This document shows, piece by piece, positions 3,739 to 54,765 of a DNA stretch of 64,000 bases. The stretch is from Halalkalicoccus sp. CGA53 (GTDB lineage Archaea > Halobacteriota > Halobacteria > Halobacteriales > Halalkalicoccaceae). The notes below the pieces were generated by a model. It was given only the letters and a program-made list of their open reading frames with translations, searched no databases and was not told the DNA's origin. Numbering within the stretch: position 1 is the first letter of the stretch; each line of letters starts with the position of its first letter. A program made the position numbers and the translations under genes. The stretch is from positions 186,001-250,000 of the forward strand of contig NZ_CP144124.1 of assembly GCF_036429475.1 (NCBI RefSeq), written 5' to 3'.

Positions 3739-4338
3739 ATGTCCCGTACTTCGAACCGAACCAACGGCGAGATCGTCCGCGACTTCCTTTCGATCGCGGA
3801 TCTATTAGAAGAGCCAAAGCTGGCTCAACTGTACGCTTATCTCGCTCGTCACGGTAATTCGACTGTTCAGGAACTAATCGAGGCGCTTGGACTCCCTCAA
3901 GGAACCGCGTACGCCTATGTAAATCGGCTCGTCGAGGGAGGTATCGTTGAGACGACGAACAACGAGCAACCACGCAGATATAGAGCTCGTGATATCGAAC
4001 TGACCGTCACTGGGGCCGATAGTGAAGGGACGTACACGATAACACCAGCACTCATCGACGCGGTCGGACGGCGCGAAACAGATGAGAACATCGACCACTA
4101 CATTGATCGACACGGGGTTGATGGTCTTGCTACCGCACTAACCTACGCCGTCGCCCGAGAACAAGGGGAGGTGACCCATCGACTCATGGCGAAGGATCTG
4201 GATATTCCTCCAATCGCCGCAGAGATCATCCTTCAGACGCTTCGTCCTGTCGTTCACGAACATGCTGATATTGAGATAGCTGGCGCTTCGGTTGCAGAGA
4301 TTGATCTTGGTAGACGAGACTCGGCTGACGACGCGTGA
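3739..4338 (+). CDS. Haloarchaeal winged-helix regulator, DUF7437-like
   Basis: This 199-aa protein has an N-terminal winged helix (about 15-80, with AQLYAYLARHGNSTVQELIE followed by a wing) and a C-terminal helical domain with the ITPALIDAVGRRETDENIDHY block and the RPVVHEHADIE end typical of a widespread haloarchaeal regulator family. Such genes are often followed by a PIN-like partner, and here the stop overlaps the GTG start of a broken PIN-like gene (GTGA at 4335-4338). It probably represses its own two-gene unit like an antitoxin. The DUF number is from memory. Confidence 0.7.
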   Translation: MSRTSNRTNGEIVRDFLSIADLLEEPKLAQLYAYLARHGNSTVQELIEALGLPQGTAYAYVNRLVEGGIVETTNNEQPRRYRARDIELTVTGADSEGTYTITPALIDAVGRRETDENIDHYIDRHGVDGLATALTYAVAREQGEVTHRLMAKDLDIPPIAAEIILQTLRPVVHEHADIEIAGASVAEIDLGRRDSADDA

Positions 4339-4640
4339 ATCCGGTTCATATCGCCAATACAGGCTTGTTCGTCGTGATGGGCCAACCAACGAATGATCGG
4401 TATTAGGCGATCCGACGATTCGCACATCGAAATGACATCACATTCGTTCTCCCAGAGCGAGTCTACGATGAACTGGCCGTCGGCGGTTCTGATATGCGGA
4501 CACCGACGATCGAAACGACACTCAAAGAGGGATGGGTGGATGTCGCCGGTCCGCTTGATTTTTCCAACCAATCGTATCACAAGTCATGGACGGTGTACAA
4601 CGGTACATCGCAAACGTGAACTCATCTGTGGAATCCTATC
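4335..4640 (+). pseudogene. PIN-like toxin gene, decayed
   Basis: Read from the GTG at 4335 the frame gives NPVHIANTGLFVVMGQPTND, a start I associate with haloarchaeal PIN-like proteins partnered with the upstream regulator. An in-frame TAG stands at 4404-4406. The same frame then resumes with ITFVLPERVYDELAVGG and GWVDVAGPLDFSNQ. Near 4575 it must shift to continue as MDGVQRYIANVNSS at 4586. The rest of the expected domain is missing. One stop, one frameshift and a truncation make it inactive. The upstream regulator is now without its partner. Confidence 0.6.
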
Positions 4641-4805
4641 ACAAGTGGAATGACTCTCTCGCGATTTCGCCCTGGTTCCGTTGTCATGCCAATTTATTAA
4701 TATCCGTTCACCCGCCGGAGTTCGGACTTTAGGAGCTGCTGGAGTAGCTCAACGTGATAGCTCGTGTTCCACAACCGTTTTTATCTCAGAGAGCCATCTA
4801 TACTA

Positions 4806-4824
4806 TGATTATCTATCATAATCA
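4806..4824. promoter_or_regulatory. Inverted repeat directly before the cupin gene
   Basis: TGATTAT (4806-4812) and ATAATCA (4818-4824) form a perfect 7-bp inverted repeat with a 5-base spacer, ending 6 bases before the chosen ATG at 4831. A T-rich TATA-like sequence lies at about 4778-4788. It fits an operator overlapping the transcription start. Confidence 0.45.
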
Positions 4825-4830
4825 ATAGTG

Positions 4831-5358
4831 ATGATAGTGAGCAAAGAAAATTTGATACAAGAATCGGCACATTCGACTCCGCAACCGTTCGTCATCGGCC
4901 CTGAGGAGGGCGAAGCCTACTGGATGCTTGGCACCCTCACGATCATCAAGGCGAGTGGCGAGGAGACCGACGGCTCGTTCTCGATGTCCGAACAGCTCGC
5001 CCCGCCAGGATTCTCACCTCCTAAGCACGTCCACCCCGAGGATGACGAACTGTTCTACGTCCTCAGTGGGCGGGTTACATTCGAGATCGACGACGAGCGC
5101 ATCACTGCGACGCCCGGATCAACAGTATACGCTCCGCACGGTATCCCGCACAGTTACCTGATTGAGGAAGAGACCCGCGTTCTCATCATGGTGTTCAAAC
5201 CCGGGTTTGAGCAGTTCTTCGCCGAGGTTGGCCGTCCCGCCGAATCCTGGACAATCCCGACCGAGGAACCGACCGAGGAGGAAGTAGCGAAGGTCAGTGA
5301 TATCGCCGAACAATACGGCTTCGAGATCGTTGGTCCGCCGATGAATGCCGAGCACTAA
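4831..5358 (+). CDS. Single-domain cupin protein
   Basis: A 175-aa protein with one double-stranded beta-helix (cupin) domain. Motif 1 appears as PPKHVHPEDDELFYVLSGRV (about 67-86), giving the His-x-His and Glu metal ligands. Motif 2 appears as GSTVYAPHGIPHSYL (about 100-114) with the last His ligand. This arrangement is common in quercetinase-like and sugar-binding cupins; the substrate cannot be predicted. The start at 4831 is preferred over the GTG at 4828. The gene stands alone, with an inverted repeat at 4806-4824 that may regulate it. Confidence 0.75.
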   Translation: MIVSKENLIQESAHSTPQPFVIGPEEGEAYWMLGTLTIIKASGEETDGSFSMSEQLAPPGFSPPKHVHPEDDELFYVLSGRVTFEIDDERITATPGSTVYAPHGIPHSYLIEEETRVLIMVFKPGFEQFFAEVGRPAESWTIPTEEPTEEEVAKVSDIAEQYGFEIVGPPMNAEH

Positions 5359-5521
5359 GTCGAGACGAGTTGCTGAAGCATCCCCTCGAACGCCAACTGG
5401 TTGAGCATAATCGACTGCACCCGGCGAGATGCCTACTTCCACTGGCGGCTGTTTACTACGCTACGTTGCGGCTCTGTTGCAATCCTTAGTGAATTACAGA
5501 TTCAGTCGGTAGTTTGAGTAG

Positions 5522-6343
5522 ATGCAGGCACTCCCAAAATCTCGATTGCTCCGATTTGCCGAGGAAGCATTTCAGTTAGCGCAACGTGCTGTGGCTCGAT
5601 ACTCCTCGAAGTTCTCGAAACAACGCTACACGCTCCATCAGCACATCGTTCTCCTGTGTCTCAAAGTTCGGAAGGACACAACGTATCGAACACTTCTCGA
5701 CGAACTCATCGAGATGCCCCGTATTCGGAGTGCGATCAACCTCACCGAACTTCCCTCCCCGTCAACGCTGTGCAAAGCGTTCGATAGACTCGATATGGCG
5801 GTCTGGCGGGTGCTTCTCAATCTCTCGGTTTCACTGCTCCCGACCAACGGTGTTGCGGGGATCGACGCTTCGGGCTTCGACCGGAATCACGCCTCAAAGC
5901 ACTACACAAAACGGACAAAGATAACGATTCAGCAGTTGAAAGTCACACTCTTAGTCGATTCGAGAGTAAACGCAATCCTCGATCTCCACGTTACAACGAC
6001 CCGCAAGCACGATACACAGATCGCACCGTCACTCATCAACCGCAACACAGCTGAAGTCGAAGTCCTGCTCGGTGACAAGGGATACGACGATCAGCAGATT
6101 CGAGCAAAGGCCCGCAAGAACAATATTCGTCCACTCATCAAACACCGTGAGTTTTCCTCACTTCAGAAAGCATGGAACGCTCGATTGGATGCCGACCTCT
6201 ACGCTCAACGGAACCAGAGCGAAACGGTGAACTCTCGACTCAAGCGTAAATACGGTGCGTTCGTCCGCTCACGACGCTGGTGGAGACAGTTTCGTGAACT
6301 CGCCCTTGCATGCCTCGTCCACAATCTCGACCTAACCCTTTAA
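5522..6343 (+). CDS. IS5-family transposase
   Basis: A 273-aa DDE transposase that appears intact. Its N-terminal helical part (1-110) precedes the catalytic core: GIDASGFDRNHAS near 114-126 gives the first Asp, LLGDKGYDDQQI near 183-194 the second Asp (DKGYD is the classic IS5/IS4 motif), and NQSETVNSRLKRKYGA near 231-246 the Glu of the final motif. The C-terminal WWRQFRELALACLVHNLDL segment is typical of haloarchaeal IS5 members. The ATG lies 52 bases inside the left inverted repeat. Related but truncated C-termini are at 35319-35584 and 39777-39890. Confidence 0.9.
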   Translation: MQALPKSRLLRFAEEAFQLAQRAVARYSSKFSKQRYTLHQHIVLLCLKVRKDTTYRTLLDELIEMPRIRSAINLTELPSPSTLCKAFDRLDMAVWRVLLNLSVSLLPTNGVAGIDASGFDRNHASKHYTKRTKITIQQLKVTLLVDSRVNAILDLHVTTTRKHDTQIAPSLINRNTAEVEVLLGDKGYDDQQIRAKARKNNIRPLIKHREFSSLQKAWNARLDADLYAQRNQSETVNSRLKRKYGAFVRSRRWWRQFRELALACLVHNLDLTL

Positions 6344-6364
6344 CGATCAGTACAGACTGTCTAT

Positions 6365-6931
6365 TCAGCGAGGATTGTCCGTCAACCACTCTAAAACTTC
6401 ACTCGCATGTTCGTCCGGTGGGAAGATTGGATAGAAGACGTATTCGATACGTCCATCAGAGACAATCAACGTTAACCGCTTCAGATAATCGTCTCCCCCA
6501 ATGCTGAACCTTGGCAAGTTAAGTTCATTCGCCAATTCCCACTCGGCATCGCTGAGCATTTCGAAGGGGAGGTGTAAGCGGTCACGGGCTTCACGTTGGT
6601 ACTCATTTGATTGCGTAGACAGTCCGAACACCTCCCCGACACCATTGTCCCGAAGTTCGTCGTAGTGGTTTCGAAACCCGCACGACTCAGGAGTACAGCC
6701 ACGGGCACCCGGTATGTCTTCCCACCCTTCTGGGATCACGTCCTCGTCAGGACGCCCCGTCATTGGATAGACGTAGATGACGGTTCGTGATGGGAGGTCT
6801 TGGAGGTTGACCGTCGTATCGTCAGTTGCTGGGAGTGACAGGTTGGGAATCTCCATTCCCTTGAGATGGTCAGCCTCACCATCATCTTCAGGTTCTGGCA
6901 GGTCGTCCGGAAGAGGGAAATCGTGGGACAT
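6365..6931 (-). CDS. Peroxiredoxin, BCP/PrxQ-like, inside an IS
   Basis: A 188-aa AhpC/TSA-family protein if it starts at the ATG at 6931; the frame is open to 6979. The thioredoxin-like core includes TVIYVYPMTGRP and the active-site stretch GARGCTPESCGFRNHYDEL. Two cysteines separated by four residues match the peroxidatic/resolving pair of atypical 2-Cys BCP proteins. It would reduce peroxides in the cytoplasm using a thioredoxin-type donor. It is convergent with the transposase and lies between the IS inverted repeats, making it a passenger gene. Both functional residues and frame are intact, so it is probably active. Confidence 0.8.
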   Translation of the reverse strand: MSHDFPLPDDLPEPEDDGEADHLKGMEIPNLSLPATDDTTVNLQDLPSRTVIYVYPMTGRPDEDVIPEGWEDIPGARGCTPESCGFRNHYDELRDNGVGEVFGLSTQSNEYQREARDRLHLPFEMLSDAEWELANELNLPRFSIGGDDYLKRLTLIVSDGRIEYVFYPIFPPDEHASEVLEWLTDNPR

Positions 6932-7186
6932 AATGCCGAGTATAACTCCTGAGCAAATAGATTTGCCGGGAAGCTCCATGTTGGAGGCCGATTTCAGACT
7001 TCTTTCTGAATAGTGAGACTGGGATCACCGGTGCTAAGCGGATGTTATTATCCGCGATGAATAGACTCCACCGACCGACTGTTTCATCCTATATTGTGTC
7101 TGAAGAATAGGATTTCAACAGAGCCTACGTTGCGTAAGTACACAACCATTCGAAAAATTACGGTATCGTCTTCAGCCCCCTTTCTA

Positions 7187-7750
7187 TTAGGGGATCTCGG
7201 ACTCCGTATGCTCGATGAGTTCCGTATCGGTTCGCCAATGGAGGAGGTGACCATGTTCATCGATCAGTTCGAAGAAATGTGCAAGCATCGCATCAAATGC
7301 TTCGCGCTCTTCTTTTTCGGTTGCGTACTTCCGTTTGAGAATCCACGTTTTCCTTCGGAGAGACGGTTCCGAGAGTGCACCAGCTTCCCATTCGTGGCCC
7401 CCTCGGTTATGCTCAAACACGCCGACGACGACGTCAGTTCGGCGAATCAGCACGTGGAACTTGAGGACAAAATTGCTTGTGAACGCTGGAACGTCTTTCA
7501 TAAGAAAGGCATGATCGCCGACGCGACGTCCTGCAAGTGCTTGTTTCACCGCGAGAAGTCGCTGTTCTTCTCGTGGGTTGTAACTCCCGGTCACGAAGTA
7601 CGAACGATCACTCTCGAGGACTCTTGAAAATACAGCATCGGATTCGAACAGTGCATCTTTGAGATCTTGTATATCCGTCGGTGTGAGCGGTCGATCGGCC
7701 ACCTCTTTCAAATCATTGAGAATGAGAGTTACGACGTCCTCGTCCATCAT
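7187..7750 (-). CDS. Conserved haloarchaeal protein, possible deoxyribosyltransferase/TIR-like fold
   Basis: An acidic 187-aa protein. After a helical N-terminus it has RSYFVTGSYNPREEQRLLAV (about 49-68), then RRTDVVVGVFEHNRGGHEWE (about 103-122) with a conserved-looking Glu, then KTWILKRKYATEKEEREAFD. The beta-strand, GSY, VVGVFE..GGHEWE pattern recalls Rossmann-like nucleoside 2-deoxyribosyltransferase and TIR-related proteins that place a Glu in this region. That similarity is from reading only. The gene is divergent from the HTH gene at 7874. The plus-strand frame over the same DNA is a shadow. Confidence 0.5.
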   Translation of the reverse strand: MMDEDVVTLILNDLKEVADRPLTPTDIQDLKDALFESDAVFSRVLESDRSYFVTGSYNPREEQRLLAVKQALAGRRVGDHAFLMKDVPAFTSNFVLKFHVLIRRTDVVVGVFEHNRGGHEWEAGALSEPSLRRKTWILKRKYATEKEEREAFDAMLAHFFELIDEHGHLLHWRTDTELIEHTESEIP

Positions 7751-7873
7751 TCAGGGACTCTCATTCGTGTTATTTATATATTGCTACTGGAATGGAGACT
7801 ATGGTGATCCTTATTGTGCCAGTCGTCACCCGAACGGTTATGAGGTAGCCGAACCTACGCATCAGTACACAGA

Positions 7874-8302
7874 ATGTCACAGGACACTCGACACTCCGAT
7901 ACGGAAGCGGCTACAGATCATCAATCGGAGTGGGAGGTTCTTCGGTTGATATCACAGCCGACGCGAGCAGCACTCCTTAGCGACATTTTGGGACATCCAC
8001 AAGAGCTACCCAGCGTTCGTGAGTTCGACTATTTCAATCCGGACGTCAAACGGAGCAACATCGAGTACCATCTCAACAAACTCGTCGAGGCGAATATCGT
8101 CGAGAAGCAATCGCTCCCTCCAGGCGAACGGAAGCGTGACCTCCCCTCGACATTCTATGGACTCACCGACGAGGGGTGGTCTATTCTTGAAAAACACGGT
8201 CTCACGGACGAGCAGCCCGTCTGGAAGGCCGTAAACGAACGCGTAGAGAAACCGCCAGAAATCCAAGAAATAGAACAGATGAAACGACCGTCAACGGCGT
8301 AG
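7874..8302 (+). CDS. Small winged-helix transcription regulator
   Basis: A 142-aa protein with an ArsR-like winged helix: EVLRLISQPTRAALLSDILG (about 22-41) as the first helices, RSNIEYHLNKLVEANIVEKQ (about 59-78) as the recognition helix, and a wing ending in FYGLTDEGWSILEKHG. The TDEG end of the wing is common in haloarchaeal HTH regulators. No ligand-binding domain follows. A T/A-rich stretch at 7762-7780 between this gene and the divergent gene at 7187 probably holds both promoters. Target unknown. Confidence 0.7.
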   Translation: MSQDTRHSDTEAATDHQSEWEVLRLISQPTRAALLSDILGHPQELPSVREFDYFNPDVKRSNIEYHLNKLVEANIVEKQSLPPGERKRDLPSTFYGLTDEGWSILEKHGLTDEQPVWKAVNERVEKPPEIQEIEQMKRPSTA

Positions 8303-49268: not shown

Positions 49269-49553
49269 TTACGCAACCAGGGATTCGATGTACTGTGCTT
49301 CCCATTCTTGACGAGCGGAAAGCTCCCGCTCACCACGCTCGGTGAGCGTGTATTCGTTCGTTCGCTGATCCCGTGAACCCTTGCTGACGAAGCCCTTCTC
49401 GACGAGCGTATCGAGATTCGGATAGAGCCGACCGTGGTGAACTTCTCCTCCGTAATACTGCTCGAGTTCCTCCTTGATCGCGAGGCCGTGTGGCTCGCCG
49501 AGACCCGCAATTACATAGAGAAGGTCTCTCTGGAACGCTGTCAAGTCGTTCAT
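49269..49553 (-). CDS. PadR-like winged-helix regulator
   Basis: A 94-aa protein from the ATG at 49553; the frame is open to 49613. It is the typical haloarchaeal PadR domain: LTAFQRDLLYVIAGLGEPHG, LAIKEELEQYYGGEVHHGRL, YPNLDTLVEKGFVSKGSRDQ and YTLTERGERELSARQEW. It lacks the extended C-terminal dimer helix of bacterial PadR. It lies 52 bases after the polymerase gene on the same strand and may be co-transcribed with it. Target unknown. Confidence 0.8.
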   Translation of the reverse strand: MNDLTAFQRDLLYVIAGLGEPHGLAIKEELEQYYGGEVHHGRLYPNLDTLVEKGFVSKGSRDQRTNEYTLTERGERELSARQEWEAQYIESLVA

Positions 49554-49605
49554 ACCAGTTGCTACGAGACGTCGAACATAAACAAATGGCGAATCAGAAT
49601 AGAAT

Positions 49606-51732
49606 TCAGTCATAGAACGCTGTCAATGACGTGTCAGTATGAGACGAGAGGTATCTTTCGAGTTCAGGACGTCGCCATCCAAGGGGTGAACAGACGCTCT
49701 CTGCGGACCGAATCAGCAGGTCGGAATAAAACTCTTCATCATACCGATCAGGTGATTCGTAGACGAGTTTCACACGATCACGCGAGCGTTTTGAATCGTC
49801 AACGACTACGTAGGAGATGTTCTGACCCGGATGTGGATCGAGCCCCCCGTCTTCGGCGCGTTCGAGAGCTGCAACCGTTCGGGTATACTGGGTGTACTCA
49901 TCGATATGCTTCGAAGCACGATTGTCGATAGCAAGCGCCTCTGGATCAACCCGACCTGCTCGAAGTTCACCGAGCTGTCGTTGTAACAGAGCACACACCG
50001 CTTCCGGTGACCGAGAGCGGTCTAACGTCTCGATCAACTCCTGTTGAGCGGTCTTGATCCACTCCGGCGTCGAACGCTGTCGACACTCGATTCCACGATA
50101 CTTGTACTCCAATTCGTCCTCCCCAACTTCATCAGCCACTTTCCCGAAGTACTTCGTGAGTGCGCCTTGGTCGCTACCTCGTAAGGGAACGAACCCGACC
50201 CACTCAAAAGCAGCTTCGTACTCAAGCCGAATCCCAACGCGATCGGTGATCTCCGTCGCGAGCTCATCGAGCGGTCTCTGTTGCTCACCGTCGATCGCGG
50301 TCACCCATAGGCTGTCGACGATCCCGTGGACGAGGTGCCACCCGTTCGCTTCGAGGACCTCCTTAGCCTCGAGCAGGATCTCGCGAGCGTACGCATTGAT
50401 CGCTTCGTGGCATTCGATCCGTCCGAATTTCGCATTCGAGAATCCCTGGTAACCGAAACAGCTCACGAGAATCCACTTGATTGCATCTGCTCGAGATTTG
50501 AGCACGGCCGCCCGCTCAGGATCGTCCGTTTCTGGGATCGCTCGCTTAAACGCATCGCGATCGTCGATCAGCGGTTGAAGCACATCGACGAGATACCCTC
50601 GCTCATCACAGATCGAATAGCCCAGACCGGGAATCTCCTCCCGATCAGCATGACACTCGCAACGAACCGTCTCCGGGCTGATGTTGAACTGACAAATGAT
50701 ATTCGGATAGAGCGAGGAGAAATCCAGCTCGTGGATATCTTCGTGAAACCCAACCTCCGGTGCGAAGGTGTAGCCGCCTCGGTCGGCGTTGTGCAGGGTC
50801 GAGAGTGGCTTGAAGAACTCGTGACGCCATGAGTTCCACGGGACGAGCACGTCGCGATCGCGAGCCTCACAGATTTGAATAGAGGTGAGAACGTTGCCGA
50901 TCGACGCCCAGGCGGTTTCTTGGAGCGGCTTTCGAGAACGCCGAACCATATCCAGACAGCCATCCAACCCGGATTGCTCGAAGAAAAACGTATTCGAGCG
51001 GTCGATAATCGCCCGCCCGGGGACGTTATACCGAGCAGGTGAGTGCCCGATGTTTCCGTAGCTTTCGTACGTCGAGCGCCCGGCCAAGCGCTGCCTGCCG
51101 GGGAGTCGTCCGAGCTGAAGGTCGACATCGAGCCCCTCGGCGGTTTCGTAGAGCGTCGGAATGATCTGACTGGAGGAAACGATCAGGATATCGGGATCCT
51201 CGCGCTCGATGCGACGATGGATCGCATGGAGAACTCCGACCGGTGTACCGATGATCGGTTGACCGTCGATGGTGAGTTCGGTGATCGGTGGATTCGCTAA
51301 TTCGGGCGGAGAAACCTCGATCTCGAGTGTCGAGGGTGTGTGCACTGGCGTCGGATCGAGATCGTTCTCCAAACAGTAGCGGAACTCCCGCGAGAGATCG
51401 ACATTGTAGAGTTTGTACTCACCGGGCTGACCGAGTCCCCGAATCTGGTAGGCGACAGGAAGTAGCTCCTCGAGGCGTCTCACGTCGATTCTGAGGACGT
51501 CCTCGTCTTCGTGACGAAAGCCCCGTCGCCACCGTTCGATTCGCGTTGAGACGACCGTGGGATAGTACCCAAGCCGCTCATGCAGTGTGGATAGCCCGTC
51601 GGTCGTGGTCTGTGCACCATCATATGTTGCGTAAATCGTCGGTGTGTAATCGCTCACACGCTCGTACTCGGCACCGTCATGGGTGATCGACCACTCGTAG
51701 ATGTCCTCGAGATAGTCGATCTTGTAGACCAT
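49606..51732 (-). CDS. Family B DNA polymerase of the haloarchaeal accessory type
   Basis: A 708-aa protein. Motif A is LDFSSLYPNIICQF, motif B is KWILVSCFGYQGFSNAKFG, and motif C is GIVDSLWVTAI. In motif C the first Asp of the usual DTDS is replaced, so only the second, catalytically more important Asp remains. An exonuclease-like fold may occupy the N-terminal 300 residues, but I do not see a complete DxE/ExD set. The protein is shorter than chromosomal PolB3. It is the last of three overlapping or abutting genes (RadA-like, small protein, polymerase), suggesting a translesion or repair unit, possibly with the divergent SRAP gene. Activity is likely but reduced fidelity is possible. Confidence 0.8.
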   Translation of the reverse strand: MVYKIDYLEDIYEWSITHDGAEYERVSDYTPTIYATYDGAQTTTDGLSTLHERLGYYPTVVSTRIERWRRGFRHEDEDVLRIDVRRLEELLPVAYQIRGLGQPGEYKLYNVDLSREFRYCLENDLDPTPVHTPSTLEIEVSPPELANPPITELTIDGQPIIGTPVGVLHAIHRRIEREDPDILIVSSSQIIPTLYETAEGLDVDLQLGRLPGRQRLAGRSTYESYGNIGHSPARYNVPGRAIIDRSNTFFFEQSGLDGCLDMVRRSRKPLQETAWASIGNVLTSIQICEARDRDVLVPWNSWRHEFFKPLSTLHNADRGGYTFAPEVGFHEDIHELDFSSLYPNIICQFNISPETVRCECHADREEIPGLGYSICDERGYLVDVLQPLIDDRDAFKRAIPETDDPERAAVLKSRADAIKWILVSCFGYQGFSNAKFGRIECHEAINAYAREILLEAKEVLEANGWHLVHGIVDSLWVTAIDGEQQRPLDELATEITDRVGIRLEYEAAFEWVGFVPLRGSDQGALTKYFGKVADEVGEDELEYKYRGIECRQRSTPEWIKTAQQELIETLDRSRSPEAVCALLQRQLGELRAGRVDPEALAIDNRASKHIDEYTQYTRTVAALERAEDGGLDPHPGQNISYVVVDDSKRSRDRVKLVYESPDRYDEEFYSDLLIRSAESVCSPLGWRRPELERYLSSHTDTSLTAFYD

Positions 51733-51733
51733 C

Positions 51734-52012
51734 TCACTCCCCGTCGGAGGATTCAGTCGCTTCCTCCAGTCGGGTAAGTCGTGTTTCGAGCTTTTCGAGC
51801 CGGGCTTCTTGTTCGAGATCGATCGAAATCAGCGCGGGGTAGAACGGCTCTGTGTGGTTGAGGTAGCCGCTCGCGTCGGCGTGTGCTCGGATATAGGAAA
51901 ACAGCTGATCGAAGTGCTGTTGATCCTCTCGACGGAGTCCCCGTCGATAGTCTGACCACAGGTTTTCGAACGCCCGGAGGACGTCACGATACGTGGGATT
52001 AGTGCGACCCAT
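51734..52012 (-). CDS. Small protein between radA-like and polB genes
   Basis: A 92-aa protein from the ATG at 52012. It begins GRTNPTYRDVLRAFENLWSD and has an ordered helical core with HFDQLFSYIRAHADASGYLN and PFYPALISIDLEQEARLEKL; the C-terminus is a short coiled coil (RLEKLETRLTRLEEATE). Its start overlaps the upstream stop by 14 bases and the polymerase ATG follows its stop by 1 base. The fixed position suggests an accessory subunit of the polymerase. No enzyme motif. Confidence 0.65.
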   Translation of the reverse strand: MGRTNPTYRDVLRAFENLWSDYRRGLRREDQQHFDQLFSYIRAHADASGYLNHTEPFYPALISIDLEQEARLEKLETRLTRLEEATESSDGE

Positions 52013-52694
52013 CAGCAGGCACCTCCGGGGTCTGTGGGCCTGTCTGAGCGGCATCGTAGATCGGCTGACGAGCATTTAGGATCTCCGCCCAGAATGCGAG
52101 CGTCGTCTGGTAATGGCCGTTCCCGAGCGGATAGACAAGTGTCTCGAACGAGTCAGCGATGAAGCGAGGACCCATGCGTGTGTGCTTACAGCGAATCGTC
52201 TCGATCGCGGCTGCTTTGATCGGATCGGTAAACGAGTCTGCACAGGTTCGTGTGACCAATATCGGAAAGTCGTATTCCCGAGCGATGCCAGCGAGTTCAG
52301 CGAGAATTCGAACAAGCATCTTTGTCGCGTCCTCATCTCGAAGCGCGTCGTCCTTGTACATCCCGTCGAGGGCTGGCAGGACCAGCAGGGTCGTATTCGC
52401 ATCAACGGTCTCTGTGAGGTCCTCTACGAGGCTGTAGTGCTGGAAGGGAGTGAATGCACGCGCCACCTGTATCCGATCCAGTACCCGCTGATCGGAAGCT
52501 AATTTTGCAAGCGGCTGTGTTCTCGCGTGACCGTGCGTATCGACCCAGTACGCGGTGCCTCGGGTGAGCGAAACGTGATCGACGATCAATGCGTGAAGCG
52601 GGCTGATCGATCCGTCATCAGAGGCAAGGAGTCGTATTCCTTTACCGAGGGCGGGGAGTTCCGGGATCGGGAGCTGATCTGTATCAGATCTCAT
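51999..52694 (-). CDS. RecA/RadA-like protein without a Walker A motif
   Basis: A protein of about 231 aa from the ATG at 52694. The middle and C-terminal parts resemble the RecA/RadA fold: AFTPFQHYSLVEDLTETVDA, NTTLLVLPALDGMYKDDALR at the Walker B position, MLVRILAELAGIAREYDFPI and LVTRTCADS. The N-terminal segment, LHALIVDHVSLTRGTAYWVD, occupies the Walker A position but lacks a GxxxxGK[T/S] loop. It is probably a non-ATPase RadA paralogue that assists recombination or the polymerase, by analogy with bacterial ImuA-type proteins beside error-prone polymerases. That analogy is inference. Confidence 0.65.
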   Translation of the reverse strand: MRSDTDQLPIPELPALGKGIRLLASDDGSISPLHALIVDHVSLTRGTAYWVDTHGHARTQPLAKLASDQRVLDRIQVARAFTPFQHYSLVEDLTETVDANTTLLVLPALDGMYKDDALRDEDATKMLVRILAELAGIAREYDFPILVTRTCADSFTDPIKAAAIETIRCKHTRMGPRFIADSFETLVYPLGNGHYQTTLAFWAEILNARQPIYDAAQTGPQTPEVPADGSH

Positions 52695-52730
52695 ATCACA
52701 CAGAACGGTCGAAATCGGAATAAGACTCGG

Positions 52731-52756
52731 CGTGTCTTTTCCAGACCTGCCAGAAC
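52731..52756. promoter_or_regulatory. ORB-core-like motif upstream of the radA-like operon
   Basis: GTGTCTTTTCCAGACCTGCC then AGAACC, about 37-62 bases before the start codon at 52694. It aligns with 54736-54765 before the first orc1 gene and with 63005-63031 before the second; the shared core is TTTCC(A/G)GA-NN-T(G/T)CC(A/T)GA. Confidence 0.5.
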
Positions 52757-52902
52757 CGAGGGAGGTATGCAATCAAACTCGACACCCACGGACAGTTTCG
52801 ACGTTCAGAAATCCTGTTCCAGATCAGTTCCACAAACAACAGTGGAGTATCGATTGCTATCCTCAGGAGCAGGTTGATACACATAGGAACCGTACCGTTT
52901 CT

Positions 52903-53589
52903 ATGTGTGGACGAAACGCTCTGTTCACCCCTCAGGGCGAATTAGAGGCGCGATTCGGGGCAAAGATCGTCACCGATGGTGGGTACACCCCGCGATACAA
53001 CATCGCACCAGGTGATGGACTCGAAGTCATCACGAACGAGGCGAGCGAGGAGATCGACCAATTCCATTGGGGACTGATTCCGTTTTGGGCTGACGAGCCG
53101 GGAGAAGGTATCATCAACGCTCGATCGGAGACCGCTCACGAAAAACGAACATTCGAGGACGCCTGGGAATCGAGACCCTGTCTCGTCCTCTCATCGGGAT
53201 TCTACGAATGGCAAGAGCGAACAGGAGGTCCAAAGCAACCATATCGTATACATCGTGAGGACACTCCCGCGTTCGCGATGGCCGGTCTCTGGGAGGTCTG
53301 GACGAATGGAGAGACAGAGATACCGTGCGTGACAATTCTCACCACAGAACCGAACGAGATGATGAAATCGATTCACGATCGGATGCCCGTAGTGCTTCCG
53401 ACCGACGTCGAAGAGACGTGGCTCGCAGCAGATCCATATGAACGACGAGAATTGTGTGGGCCCTACCCCGACGAGGACCTCGAGGTGTACGAAATCTCAA
53501 CTCAAGTAAATAACCCCGGAAACGATGATCCCTCGGTGATCGAACCGCTGGATTACGACCAGTCCGGACTCGACCATTTCAGTTCCTGA
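52903..53589 (+). CDS. SRAP (HMCES/YedK) DNA-protein crosslink protein
   Basis: A protein of about 228 aa from the ATG at 52903, chosen because Cys2 of MCGRNALF must become the N-terminal catalytic residue. Other conserved residues are present: INARSETAHEKRTFEDAW (Asn), LSSGFYEWQERTGGPKQPYR (Glu) and KSIHDRMPVVLP (His). SRAP proteins bind abasic sites in single-stranded DNA and form a thiazolidine crosslink that protects the site during replication. It is divergent from the radA-like/polymerase operon, supporting a shared repair role. The C-terminal tail is acidic. Confidence 0.9.
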   Translation: MCGRNALFTPQGELEARFGAKIVTDGGYTPRYNIAPGDGLEVITNEASEEIDQFHWGLIPFWADEPGEGIINARSETAHEKRTFEDAWESRPCLVLSSGFYEWQERTGGPKQPYRIHREDTPAFAMAGLWEVWTNGETEIPCVTILTTEPNEMMKSIHDRMPVVLPTDVEETWLAADPYERRELCGPYPDEDLEVYEISTQVNNPGNDDPSVIEPLDYDQSGLDHFSS

Positions 53590-53672: not shown

Positions 53673-54722
53673 CTAAATATAATCTTGGTCGAAAGAGTTT
53701 GAAATCCGATAGAGTCGGTCTCTACTCGTACCCTCAGCAGCGATCAGCCCGTAGCGATCCATCTTTGAGAGATACGTTCGAACGGTCCGATCGCTTTTCG
53801 GACTCTCAACTCGCTTGCGATACGAGGTGTAGAGATCACTTGGGGCGATTTCGCCTTCTTCTTGAATGACCTCATAGAGTGCTCGTTGATGATGTGTGAG
53901 CGTATCCAGATTCTTTCGGTGCATCTCGCTTTGTGCATGCGGGATCGCCTCCTCGACGATCTTCTCAGTGATTCGCTCGCTCTGTTCGTGCATCGCCGTT
54001 CGTGCGGCACTCCGAAGAACGCTGATTGCGAGACGAGCATCACCGGCAGCGGCGTCGGCGATCGTCGCTAACACGGTTTGATCGACAGCACCTTTCCGGA
54101 GTCCACGTTCAGCACGGGCGTGCAGAATCGCCGTGAGATCTTCTACACCATACTTGTCGAACCGGACTCGATCGCAACCCCTATATCGACTGATAATCCG
54201 TTCGTCGAGATCGGCAAAGAGCTCCTCCTCACGATTGGCGATCAGCATTGTCGAGAACTGCGGGAGCGCGTAGAGATCGTACAAAATGCGTTTGTCCTCA
54301 AGTTGGTCGACTTCGTCGAGAATCACGACGCAGTGTGGTCCGTTGTATTCTCGAAGTCGTTCGATGAGCTCGTCGTGTGGAGTCGATTGCCGATGGATGT
54401 TGAGCGTCTTTCCGAGACCCTCGAGGATATGATAGACGGTCCGGAACTGCGAGTGTGCCTGCCAGCAATTGACATACTGAACCGTAGCGTCGAGGGTTTC
54501 TTGTTGGAGTTGATCGGTGACAAAGCGTGCGAGACAGGTCTTCCCTGCACCTGAGGGACCGGTGAGGAGTGCAGATTCGGCCGGCTCACCGTACGAGATT
54601 GGTTCGAGAACACTTGCGAGATGGTTCAACTCCTGATCCCGGTGAACGACTTCTCTCGGGACGAATTCAGAGCGGAGTACACGAGCGTCCCGAATCATGG
54701 CGAAGATGGCTGTCTCGGCCAT
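53673..54722 (-). CDS. Orc1/Cdc6 replication initiator, first copy
   Basis: A 349-aa AAA+ protein, or 341 aa if it starts at the MIRDARVL Met at 54698. Walker A is LLTGPSGAGKTCLARF, Walker B is CVVILDEVDQLED, sensor 1 is MLIANREEELFADLDERI and sensor 2 lies in DARLAISVLRSAARTAM. The C-terminal winged helix with ALYEVIQEEGEIAPSDLYTS and VRTYLSKMDRYGLI binds DNA. It is diverged from the second copy at 61690 and no full ORB cluster was seen beside it; only an ORB-core-like motif lies 20 bases upstream. It may be a regulator or serve a different origin. Confidence 0.9.
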   Translation of the reverse strand: MAETAIFAMIRDARVLRSEFVPREVVHRDQELNHLASVLEPISYGEPAESALLTGPSGAGKTCLARFVTDQLQQETLDATVQYVNCWQAHSQFRTVYHILEGLGKTLNIHRQSTPHDELIERLREYNGPHCVVILDEVDQLEDKRILYDLYALPQFSTMLIANREEELFADLDERIISRYRGCDRVRFDKYGVEDLTAILHARAERGLRKGAVDQTVLATIADAAAGDARLAISVLRSAARTAMHEQSERITEKIVEEAIPHAQSEMHRKNLDTLTHHQRALYEVIQEEGEIAPSDLYTSYRKRVESPKSDRTVRTYLSKMDRYGLIAAEGTSRDRLYRISNSFDQDYI

Positions 54723-54741
54723 ATTAAGTGGTGGTGTGTCG

Positions 54742-54765
54742 TTTCCGGAATTGCCAGAACGCGTA
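54742..54765. promoter_or_regulatory. ORB-core-like motif upstream of the first orc1
   Basis: TTTCCGGAATTGCCAGAACG, starting 20 bases before the codon at 54722. The TTTCCGGA and TTGCCAGA halves are near direct repeats. It is related to the motifs at 52731 and 63007, and its TTTCC.GA part matches the TTTCCTGAGTT core of the origin repeats. Autoregulation by Orc1 is plausible. Confidence 0.5.

Follow-up and report, generated by a model that had tools for sequence, protein, structure and literature searches.

The window analysed here, a 64,000-nucleotide stretch of Halalkalicoccus sp. CGA53 (NZ_CP144124.1, positions 186,001 to 250,000), carries a PolB2 mutasome on a secondary replicon. The three genes iRadA, PPB2, and PolB2 lie in that order at 49606-52694 on the minus strand (Table 1); PPB2, which had been picked out beforehand as a small coupled protein, shares 14 nt with the end of iRadA and stops 1 nt short of PolB2. 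A PadR gene begins within the last 8 nt of PolB2 and is therefore probably co-transcribed with it. An SRAP gene is divergent to iRadA and convergent with a gene for an Orc1/Cdc6 paralogue. The preliminary description of this DNA mentioned neither the Orc1/Cdc6 gene nor the PadR gene, nor the additional copies that this genome has of parts of the system. The genome has a second, chromosomal mutasome.

Table 1. Genes and promoter elements of the PolB2 locus, in window coordinates.
Feature	Coordinates	Strand	Evidence
PadR-family winged-helix regulator	49269..49613	-	Pfam PadR 6.6e-17
PolB2, B-family translesion polymerase, 708 aa	49606..51732	-	NCBIfam NF004418 1139 bits; Pfam DNA_pol_B 2.1e-26
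PPB2 (arCOG07300-like), 92 aa	51734..52012	-	MGRT start; position; name from PMC11791011
iRadA, RadA/Rad51-fold, without Walker A, start MRSDTDQL	51999..52694	-	Pfam Rad51 5.7e-6
Promoter element of iRadA-PPB2-PolB2 operon, TTCTGGCAGGTCTGGAAAAGACACGCCGAGTCTTATTCC	52717..52755	-	28.5 bits, PWM
SRAP (HMCES/YedK family), start MCGRN	52903..53589	+	Pfam SRAP 8.1e-66
Orc1/Cdc6 paralogue, AAA+ and winged helix, start MIRDARVL	53673..54698	-	TIGR02928 188.5 bits
Promoter element of Orc1 gene, TTCTGGCAATTCCGGAAACGACACACCACCACTTAATAT	54721..54759	-	31.7 bits, PWM

The idea that this is an archaeal mutasome-like cluster is borne out, since PolB2, PPB2, and iRadA are the published subunits of the archaeal PolB2 mutasome, whose operon includes arCOG07300 and arCOG07763 (PMC4104785, PMC11791011). 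The 1:1:3 complex has been published as models, in which PolB2, iRadA, and PPB2 form a heteropentamer likened to Pol V (PMC11791011), and the translesion activity comes from Sulfolobus biochemistry: Sulfolobus PolB2 (Dpo2) is induced by damage, is needed for damage-induced mutagenesis, and has extender activity (PMC7390963, PMC8764526). The window locus agrees with the published system in its three subunits and their order, the MGRT arm, an iRadA without Walker A, a motif C that has lost its first Asp, and Orc1 and SRAP neighbors, both of which are enriched next to polB2 (PMC11791011).

A PolB2 match at 1e-30 is present in 189 of the 292 genomes of the class, and the order iRadA-PPB2-PolB2 is kept in 98 of 106 polB2 loci (77 close, 21 with PolB2 further off; in the other 8 not all three genes were found), which argues that the cluster is not a product of chance. 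These loci are not a random sample, having been picked among the better PolB2 matches, and come from genomes that are related to each other; they often lie on plasmids. SRAP occurs in 21 of the 106, and is convergent with Orc1 in all 14 loci where both could be scored. The SRAP protein had been called divergent; the gene is indeed divergently transcribed, but the protein is ordinary in sequence.

In the polymerase, motif A reads DFSSLYP and motif C reads HGIVDS, which aligns to YSDTDG of an archaeal PolB structure (PDB) and substitutes the first Asp of DxD. This changed motif C had been singled out and is present, but it is no peculiarity, and we dropped it as an unusual feature: the lost-Asp motif C is the norm in haloarchaeal PolB2, with HGIVDS in 104 of 105 aligned rows and HGIGDS in the other (one locus with only a truncated PolB2, L014, was excluded from the 105-row counts). 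Window PolB2 has DR at residues 244-245, which we equate with the published D(K/R) motif; the residue after that D is K or R in 44 of the 105 rows and E in at least 50. As to the proofreading exonuclease site, no D-x-E occurs in residues 1-260 and no Pfam exonuclease match was found; for the PolB2 of Halobacterium NRC-1, conserved exonuclease motifs are stated to be present, as data not shown (PMC1906834). The C-terminal tail DTSLTAFYD resembles a PCNA box, but a simple pattern finds such tails in only 4 of 105 PolB2s, and the window tail is therefore weak evidence. Among PPB2 homologs whose alignment reaches the start, the N-terminus is MGRT in 94 of 98, MGRS in 3, and MGRM in 1. The preliminary description was right that the RecA-fold protein lacks Walker A, as G-x4-G-K-[ST] is absent from window iRadA and from all 94 iRadA homologs; iRadA had no match in phage records.

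Comparison of the loci reveals a promoter element of about 39 bp that is held at a fixed position, is nearly confined to the mutasome and Orc1 genes, and tracks one Orc1 subfamily. Its consensus is about TTCNNGGAAANTCCGGAAACGACMC-N8-TTAT, built of two (T)TCCGGAA-like repeats of about 9 bp followed by GACMC, directly ahead of a TATA-like box. The two window elements are alike in sequence, and each ends 22 nt before the ATG, of iRadA in one case and Orc1 in the other. The window locus was one of 66 on which a 29-column PWM was refined; in those loci the PWM gave 83 matches, 78 of them at iRadA, Orc1, or PolB2 starts, against 3 in the reversed control; in 40 held-out polB2 loci it gave 74 matches, 62 at iRadA, PolB2, or Orc1 starts, against 1 in the control, and 36 of the 40 carried the element. 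The element was also found at orc and iRadA on plasmids of H. salinarum R1 and H. marismortui. Judging by plasmid location, the H. salinarum paralogue (WP_012289552) probably corresponds to orc9 of strain NRC-1, reported to be non-essential (PMC1906834).

A strict pattern has 145 matches in 105 of the 292 genomes searched (reversed control, 6), about 123 of them at mutasome or Orc1 genes; when it was drawn up, loci in some of those genomes had already been inspected. Specifically, i) placed against the matches listed, 33 lie at Orc1 starts and 37 at PolB2 starts; ii) a further 37 lie upstream of PolB2 at iRadA-operon distance, and are assigned by distance only; iii) of the 38 left unplaced by coordinates, 16 proved to be at mutasome or Orc1 genes once read; and iv) many of the remaining 22 lack an upstream repeat and, judged by eye, look like chance. 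One strict match with both repeats lies ahead of a radical-SAM gene (L209; Pfam 4e-10). The first aligned codon follows the end of the strict pattern by 28-39 nt in the case of Orc1 and by 30-55 nt in that of PolB2. In the window genome the strict pattern has no match and misses both window elements; a looser pattern with 2 mismatches matches 7 times, compared with 4 times for the control, the Orc1 site being among those with 2 mismatches. We dropped SRAP as a carrier of the element, there being no PWM match at any SRAP start in the 66 refinement or 40 held-out loci, and likewise an inverted repeat over the SRAP start (52879-52908), which is not kept in the duplicate copy.

The Orc1 paralogue matches PDB 2qby_A and 2v1u_A across nearly its full length, and its Walker A and Walker B are conserved in a 49-row alignment. 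The element lies upstream of 42 of 51 scorable Orc1 genes of the window subfamily; of the 46 distant Orc paralogues that these loci also contain, none has it. Thirteen strict elements are at subfamily Orc1 genes with no PolB2 within 30 kb among the matches listed, a list that may miss some PolB2 genes, and two genomes (G222 and G249) have an Orc1 with the element and no PolB2 match among those listed. iRadA or PolB2 carries the element in 51 of 53 loci with Orc1 and in 28 of 52 without an adjacent Orc1 (Fisher 2e-7; in 66 of the 106 loci behind these counts, the Orc1 promoters were among the sequences used to refine the PWM). Once the PolB2 tree is taken into account, the association becomes marginal, with a median p of 0.03 over 14 independent pairs, and p is 0.25 when a tandem variant is counted as the element. 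A strict one-to-one link between element and adjacent Orc1 was dropped, since those 28 loci keep the element; several element-less loci have a subfamily Orc1 elsewhere in the same genome.

We consider it likely that the Orc1 paralogue binds the shared element and regulates both itself and the mutasome on this secondary replicon, probably activating them upon damage or at stalled forks. iRadA, PPB2, and PolB2 would be made from one operon and assemble into a polymerase complex; by analogy with what has been published for Sulfolobus, this complex would extend primers past lesions, mutagenically; SRAP, expressed from the same intergenic region as the operon, would cap abasic sites; and the Orc1 paralogue, most likely bound to the element at the operon and at its own promoter, would probably activate itself and the mutasome when DNA is damaged or forks stall.

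A less probable reading is that a different transcription factor encoded elsewhere binds the element and controls both the mutasome and Orc1, which would then be an effector under regulation, with a role for instance in restarting replication. Winged-helix regulators are numerous in haloarchaea, the PadR gene overlaps PolB2 in the window, and the 28 loci that keep the element with no Orc1 nearby fit this reading; yet PadR relatives occur in just 4 of the other 105 polB2 loci, the element stays at Orc1 in loci and genomes without PolB2 among the matches listed, and an Orc1-type damage regulator of Sulfolobus binds its own promoter (PMC9738581). It is improbable that the element serves as an origin recognition box, with the cluster lying at a replication origin of the replicon: adjacency to Orc1 and frequent location on plasmids speak for an origin, and a CGGAAAC core is common to the element and one published haloarchaeal ORB, but that core is all they share, the consensus lacks the G-string (PMC3528665), the position near the TATA-like box is fixed, and the element is also present where PolB2 or iRadA starts but Orc1 is not close by. 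Least probable of all is an ordinary PolB2 operon with no dedicated regulator, in which a conserved strong core promoter (BRE/TATA) would explain the TATA-like 3′ TTAT, but not the concentration of strict matches at mutasome and Orc1 genes, the conserved repeats extending well upstream of the TATA-like part, or the absence of the element from distant Orc genes.

The proposed regulation by the Orc1 paralogue has a precedent in Sulfolobus Orc1-2, a proven DNA-damage regulator whose regulon is marked by an ANTTTC element and which has a site on its own promoter (PMC9738581). Both proteins belong to the Orc1/Cdc6 family, with an AAA+ domain and a winged helix, Walker A and B being conserved in the window protein, and in both (for the window subfamily, by comparison) the orc promoter carries a site shared with the target genes, proposed ones in the window subfamily. 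The sites differ, however, tandem TCCGGAA plus GACMC in place of ANTTTC (DDRE), and the putative haloarchaeal regulon, as judged by our searches, includes little beyond the mutasome and the orc gene. The element is also distinct in sequence from the damage-associated UV-B promoter motif of Halobacterium, TTTCACTTTCA (PMC2556686). Near-matches to that motif lie ahead of iRadA in 5 of the 106 loci, none of which carries the element; one is the second mutasome of the window genome, which has no such element but a motif similar to the published UV-B one. In one count the UV label was reserved for loci where neither the element nor its variant occurs; a scan of all loci returned the same five. The cluster itself was already known; the shared promoter element is the part that looks new, and in the portions of PMC11791011 and PMC4104785 that were consulted neither the element nor its link to the Orc1 subfamily is mentioned.

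The preliminary description also drew a parallel with bacterial ImuA-ImuB-DnaE2. In lexA/imuA-imuB-dnaE2 cassettes a damage-tolerance polymerase, a RecA-like partner, and a regulator form a compact set, and the haloarchaeal locus is alike in this (as it is to Pol V), but its polymerase is of the B family, its RadA-like protein has no Walker A, PPB2 is part of the set, and an Orc1-type protein replaces LexA. The parallel is a fair functional analogy, not homology. We give roughly even chances to a broader proposal, that the locus is an SOS-like haloarchaeal module in which an Orc1/Cdc6 protein turned transcription factor binds tandem TCCGGAA-GACMC, governs both its own gene and the PolB2 mutasome, and moves with the mutasome on large plasmids, much as lexA is carried by bacterial mutagenesis cassettes, of which the module would be the archaeal counterpart. 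In this proposal other copies could be wired to a UV TTTCAC motif (a label for partial matches to the published 11-mer), so that two mutasomes would give a cell two damage programmes.

The predicted regulation bears on the way in which euryarchaea detect DNA damage and turn on mutagenic repair. Being largely restricted to the mutasome and one Orc1 subfamily, the short element points to a candidate regulator as well as a candidate site, and it does so in organisms with working genetics, the salt-loving archaea. It suggests that in haloarchaea, as in Sulfolobus, a family of origin-binding proteins was recruited to damage regulation, but at a different DNA site.

The locus belongs to a published type of archaeal mutasome, described as an operon of an inactivated-looking PolB2, arCOG07300 and an inactivated RadA (PMC4104785; this and the other papers are cited from excerpts), the parts of which have since been called PolB2, PPB2 and iRadA and modelled as a heteropentamer (PMC11791011). 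The window PolB2 carries HGIVDS (present in 104 of 105 rows) and has DR at the D(K/R) position, PPB2 begins with MGRT (94 of 98 homologues), and no Walker A motif was found in iRadA, either in the window or in any of 94 homologues; because the window shows these published features, the preliminary description was right to see an archaeal mutasome here, and the type is already in print. Sulfolobus PolB2 is an active, damage-induced extender polymerase, and damage-induced mutagenesis in Sulfolobus requires it (PMC7390963, PMC8764526); loss of the exonuclease site is at most tentative for the window PolB2, and a report on PolB2 of Halobacterium NRC-1 runs contrary to it; there orc9 and polB2 are reportedly non-essential and polB2 is conservedly linked with a different Orc clade (PMC1906834).

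Genes of the mutasome locus in the window
Gene	Position	Strand or orientation	Recognised by
PadR-family regulator	49269-49613	overlaps PolB2 stop by 8 nt	Pfam and NCBIfam
PolB2	49606-51732	-	Pfam and NCBIfam
PPB2	51734-52012	-	MGRT start and position
iRadA	51999-52694	-	weak Pfam/NCBIfam placing (Rad51 fold)
SRAP	52903-53589	divergent to iRadA	Pfam and NCBIfam
Orc1/Cdc6 (start MIRDARVL)	53673-54698	convergent with SRAP	Pfam and NCBIfam

On the minus strand iRadA and PPB2 overlap by 14 nt and PPB2 and PolB2 are 1 nt apart, and the order iRadA-PPB2-PolB2 is kept in 98 of 106 polB2 loci examined; PPB2 has no Pfam or NCBIfam match above the curated cut-off. Relatives of the PadR gene occur at 4 of 105 other loci, and SRAP-Orc1 convergent pairs number 14; orc1/cdc6 and SRAP are enriched near polB2 (PMC11791011), and many euryarchaea have an arORC2 gene close to the PolB2 operon (PMC4104785). 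A 15-nt inverted repeat, 87% complementary and without spacer, spans the SRAP start codon (window 52879-52908) and is absent from a duplicate SRAP-iRadA-PPB2 copy.

That duplicate lies with its own element on the small contig of 279,642 bases that also holds the window (L014, G000:C1:33000-43000, 3918-6235), where about the first 45 codons resemble PolB2 before the frame passes into unrelated sequence; several haloarchaea have additional two-gene copies (PMC4104785). The 3.76-Mb companion contig has a second complete mutasome (L015, G000:C2:1414000-1428000, 4838-8028) whose PolB2 is 53% identical, and no Orc1, SRAP or element was found in that stretch; the genome has three SRAP genes altogether. 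Within the class, 189 of the 292 genomes sampled contain PolB2 matches at 1e-30, and 165 plasmid-collection records match the query (88 with at least 80% query coverage), the weaker matches taking in other B-family polymerases, e.g. of Escherichia. On pNRC200 of H. salinarum NRC-1 (NC_002608 286660-286764) the PPB2 match covers residues 34-68 only, whereas R1 matches from residue 1, and the NRC-1 gene may be damaged.

The region upstream of iRadA shares with the duplicate and three relatives a conserved block, GACACGCC-N4-CTTATTCC, which in a wider comparison precedes iRadA and also PolB2 where PolB2 is separate. The consensus is two repeats of about 9 bp, approximately TTCNNGGAAANTCCGGAAACGACMC, followed by a TATA-like TTAT; a start codon some 20-30 nt beyond TTAT would suit leaderless haloarchaeal transcripts, and the two window elements, which are alike, each end 22 nt 5′ of ATG. 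A 29-column weight matrix refined on 66 loci, the window's among them, gave 83 matches at 10 bits or more in those loci (43 at iRadA, 27 at Orc1, 8 at PolB2, 5 unplaced; 3 in the reversed sequences). In 40 held-out loci, at 12 bits or more, there were 74 (29 at iRadA, 17 at PolB2, 16 at Orc1 and 12 that were not placed, against 1 in the reversed control), with a match at iRadA or PolB2 in 36 of the 40. With up to two mismatches allowed, a pattern search of this genome found 7 sites and its control 4; the 7 are both iRadA copies with none, the Orc1 site with two, and four others with two.

A strict pattern, CGGAANNNACMCN8TTAT, which misses both window elements, was scanned over 292 genomes and gave 145 matches in 105 of them (reversed control 6). 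Among the matches listed, 33 lie at Orc1 and 37 at PolB2 by coordinates, a further 37 at iRadA-operon distance from PolB2 (by distance alone) and 38 elsewhere; reading all of the last placed 16 more at mutasome or Orc1 genes, for a total of about 123 of 145. Also among the matches listed, 13 strict elements stand at Orc1 genes that have no listed PolB2 match within 30 kb. Two genomes (G222, G249) have Orc1 with the element and no PolB2 match, as has a third (G006) with an interrupted Orc1 frame. On known plasmids the element precedes orc (26.5 bits) and iRadA (29.1) on PHS1 of H. salinarum R1, and orc (19.3), iRadA (33.3) and polB2 (31.0) on pNG600 of H. marismortui.

The Orc1 genes concerned have conserved Walker motifs and form a narrow subfamily: among 35 candidates in this genome, just one reaches 1e-60. 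With two edge cases excluded, and with loci that include the 66 used for refinement, the element lies upstream of 42 of 51 subfamily genes (at least 45% identity and enough upstream sequence), 0 of 46 Orc genes below 36%, and 1 of 4 in between; the nine misses comprise two truncated frames, four cases with a tandem GGAA repeat, and one each with a single repeat, a degenerate repeat and none. The element stands at iRadA or PolB2 in 51 of 53 loci with Orc1 versus 28 of 52 without (Fisher 2e-7); in tree-independent pairs the sign test has a median p of 0.03, or 0.25 if the tandem variant counts as the element.

When 105 loci were classified, the element was present in 79 and a tandem GGAA variant in 11; a TTTCAC-type motif stood in 5, and the remaining 10 had none of these. 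The five TTTCAC-type loci resemble, mostly as partial matches, the Halobacterium UV-B motif TTTCACTTTCA of radA1 (PMC2556686), and include the chromosomal mutasome of this genome, which has CACTTTCAC, close to that motif, 5′ of iRadA. Several genomes with element-less loci have a subfamily Orc1 elsewhere, which weakens a one-regulator account. As for other genes, an element with both repeats lies 5′ of a gene encoding a radical-SAM protein, which may also belong to the regulon (L209, G094:C1:1685200-1687400), and on the minus strand of L161 a weaker match of 17.1 bits, downstream of offset 12046, precedes a gene for an RNase H-like/PolB-exonuclease-like protein. TnpB-like genes, presumably of IS605 type, now stand 3′ of two elements (L088, L224), which suggests that an inserted transposon now separates each element from its target gene.

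On the simplest reading, the Orc1 paralogue would bind the element and so control its own gene and the mutasome genes. A literature search that took in few subscription papers and no supplements brought up no account of the element, nor of any haloarchaeal Orc1 that regulates the mutasome; one may have been published earlier. Sulfolobus Orc1-2 does the same kind of job at a DNA site that differs from the window element (PMC9738581). The element lies at the edge of BRE/TATA, and by analogy activation would therefore be likelier; repression by Orc1 through the same element is the less likely mode. Haloarchaeal Orc proteins and their adjoining ORBs are reported to be paired by family (PMC3528665), and one ORB quoted in that paper has the CGGAAAC core in common with the element here, which lacks the G-string; conversion of an origin binder into a promoter binder would fit.
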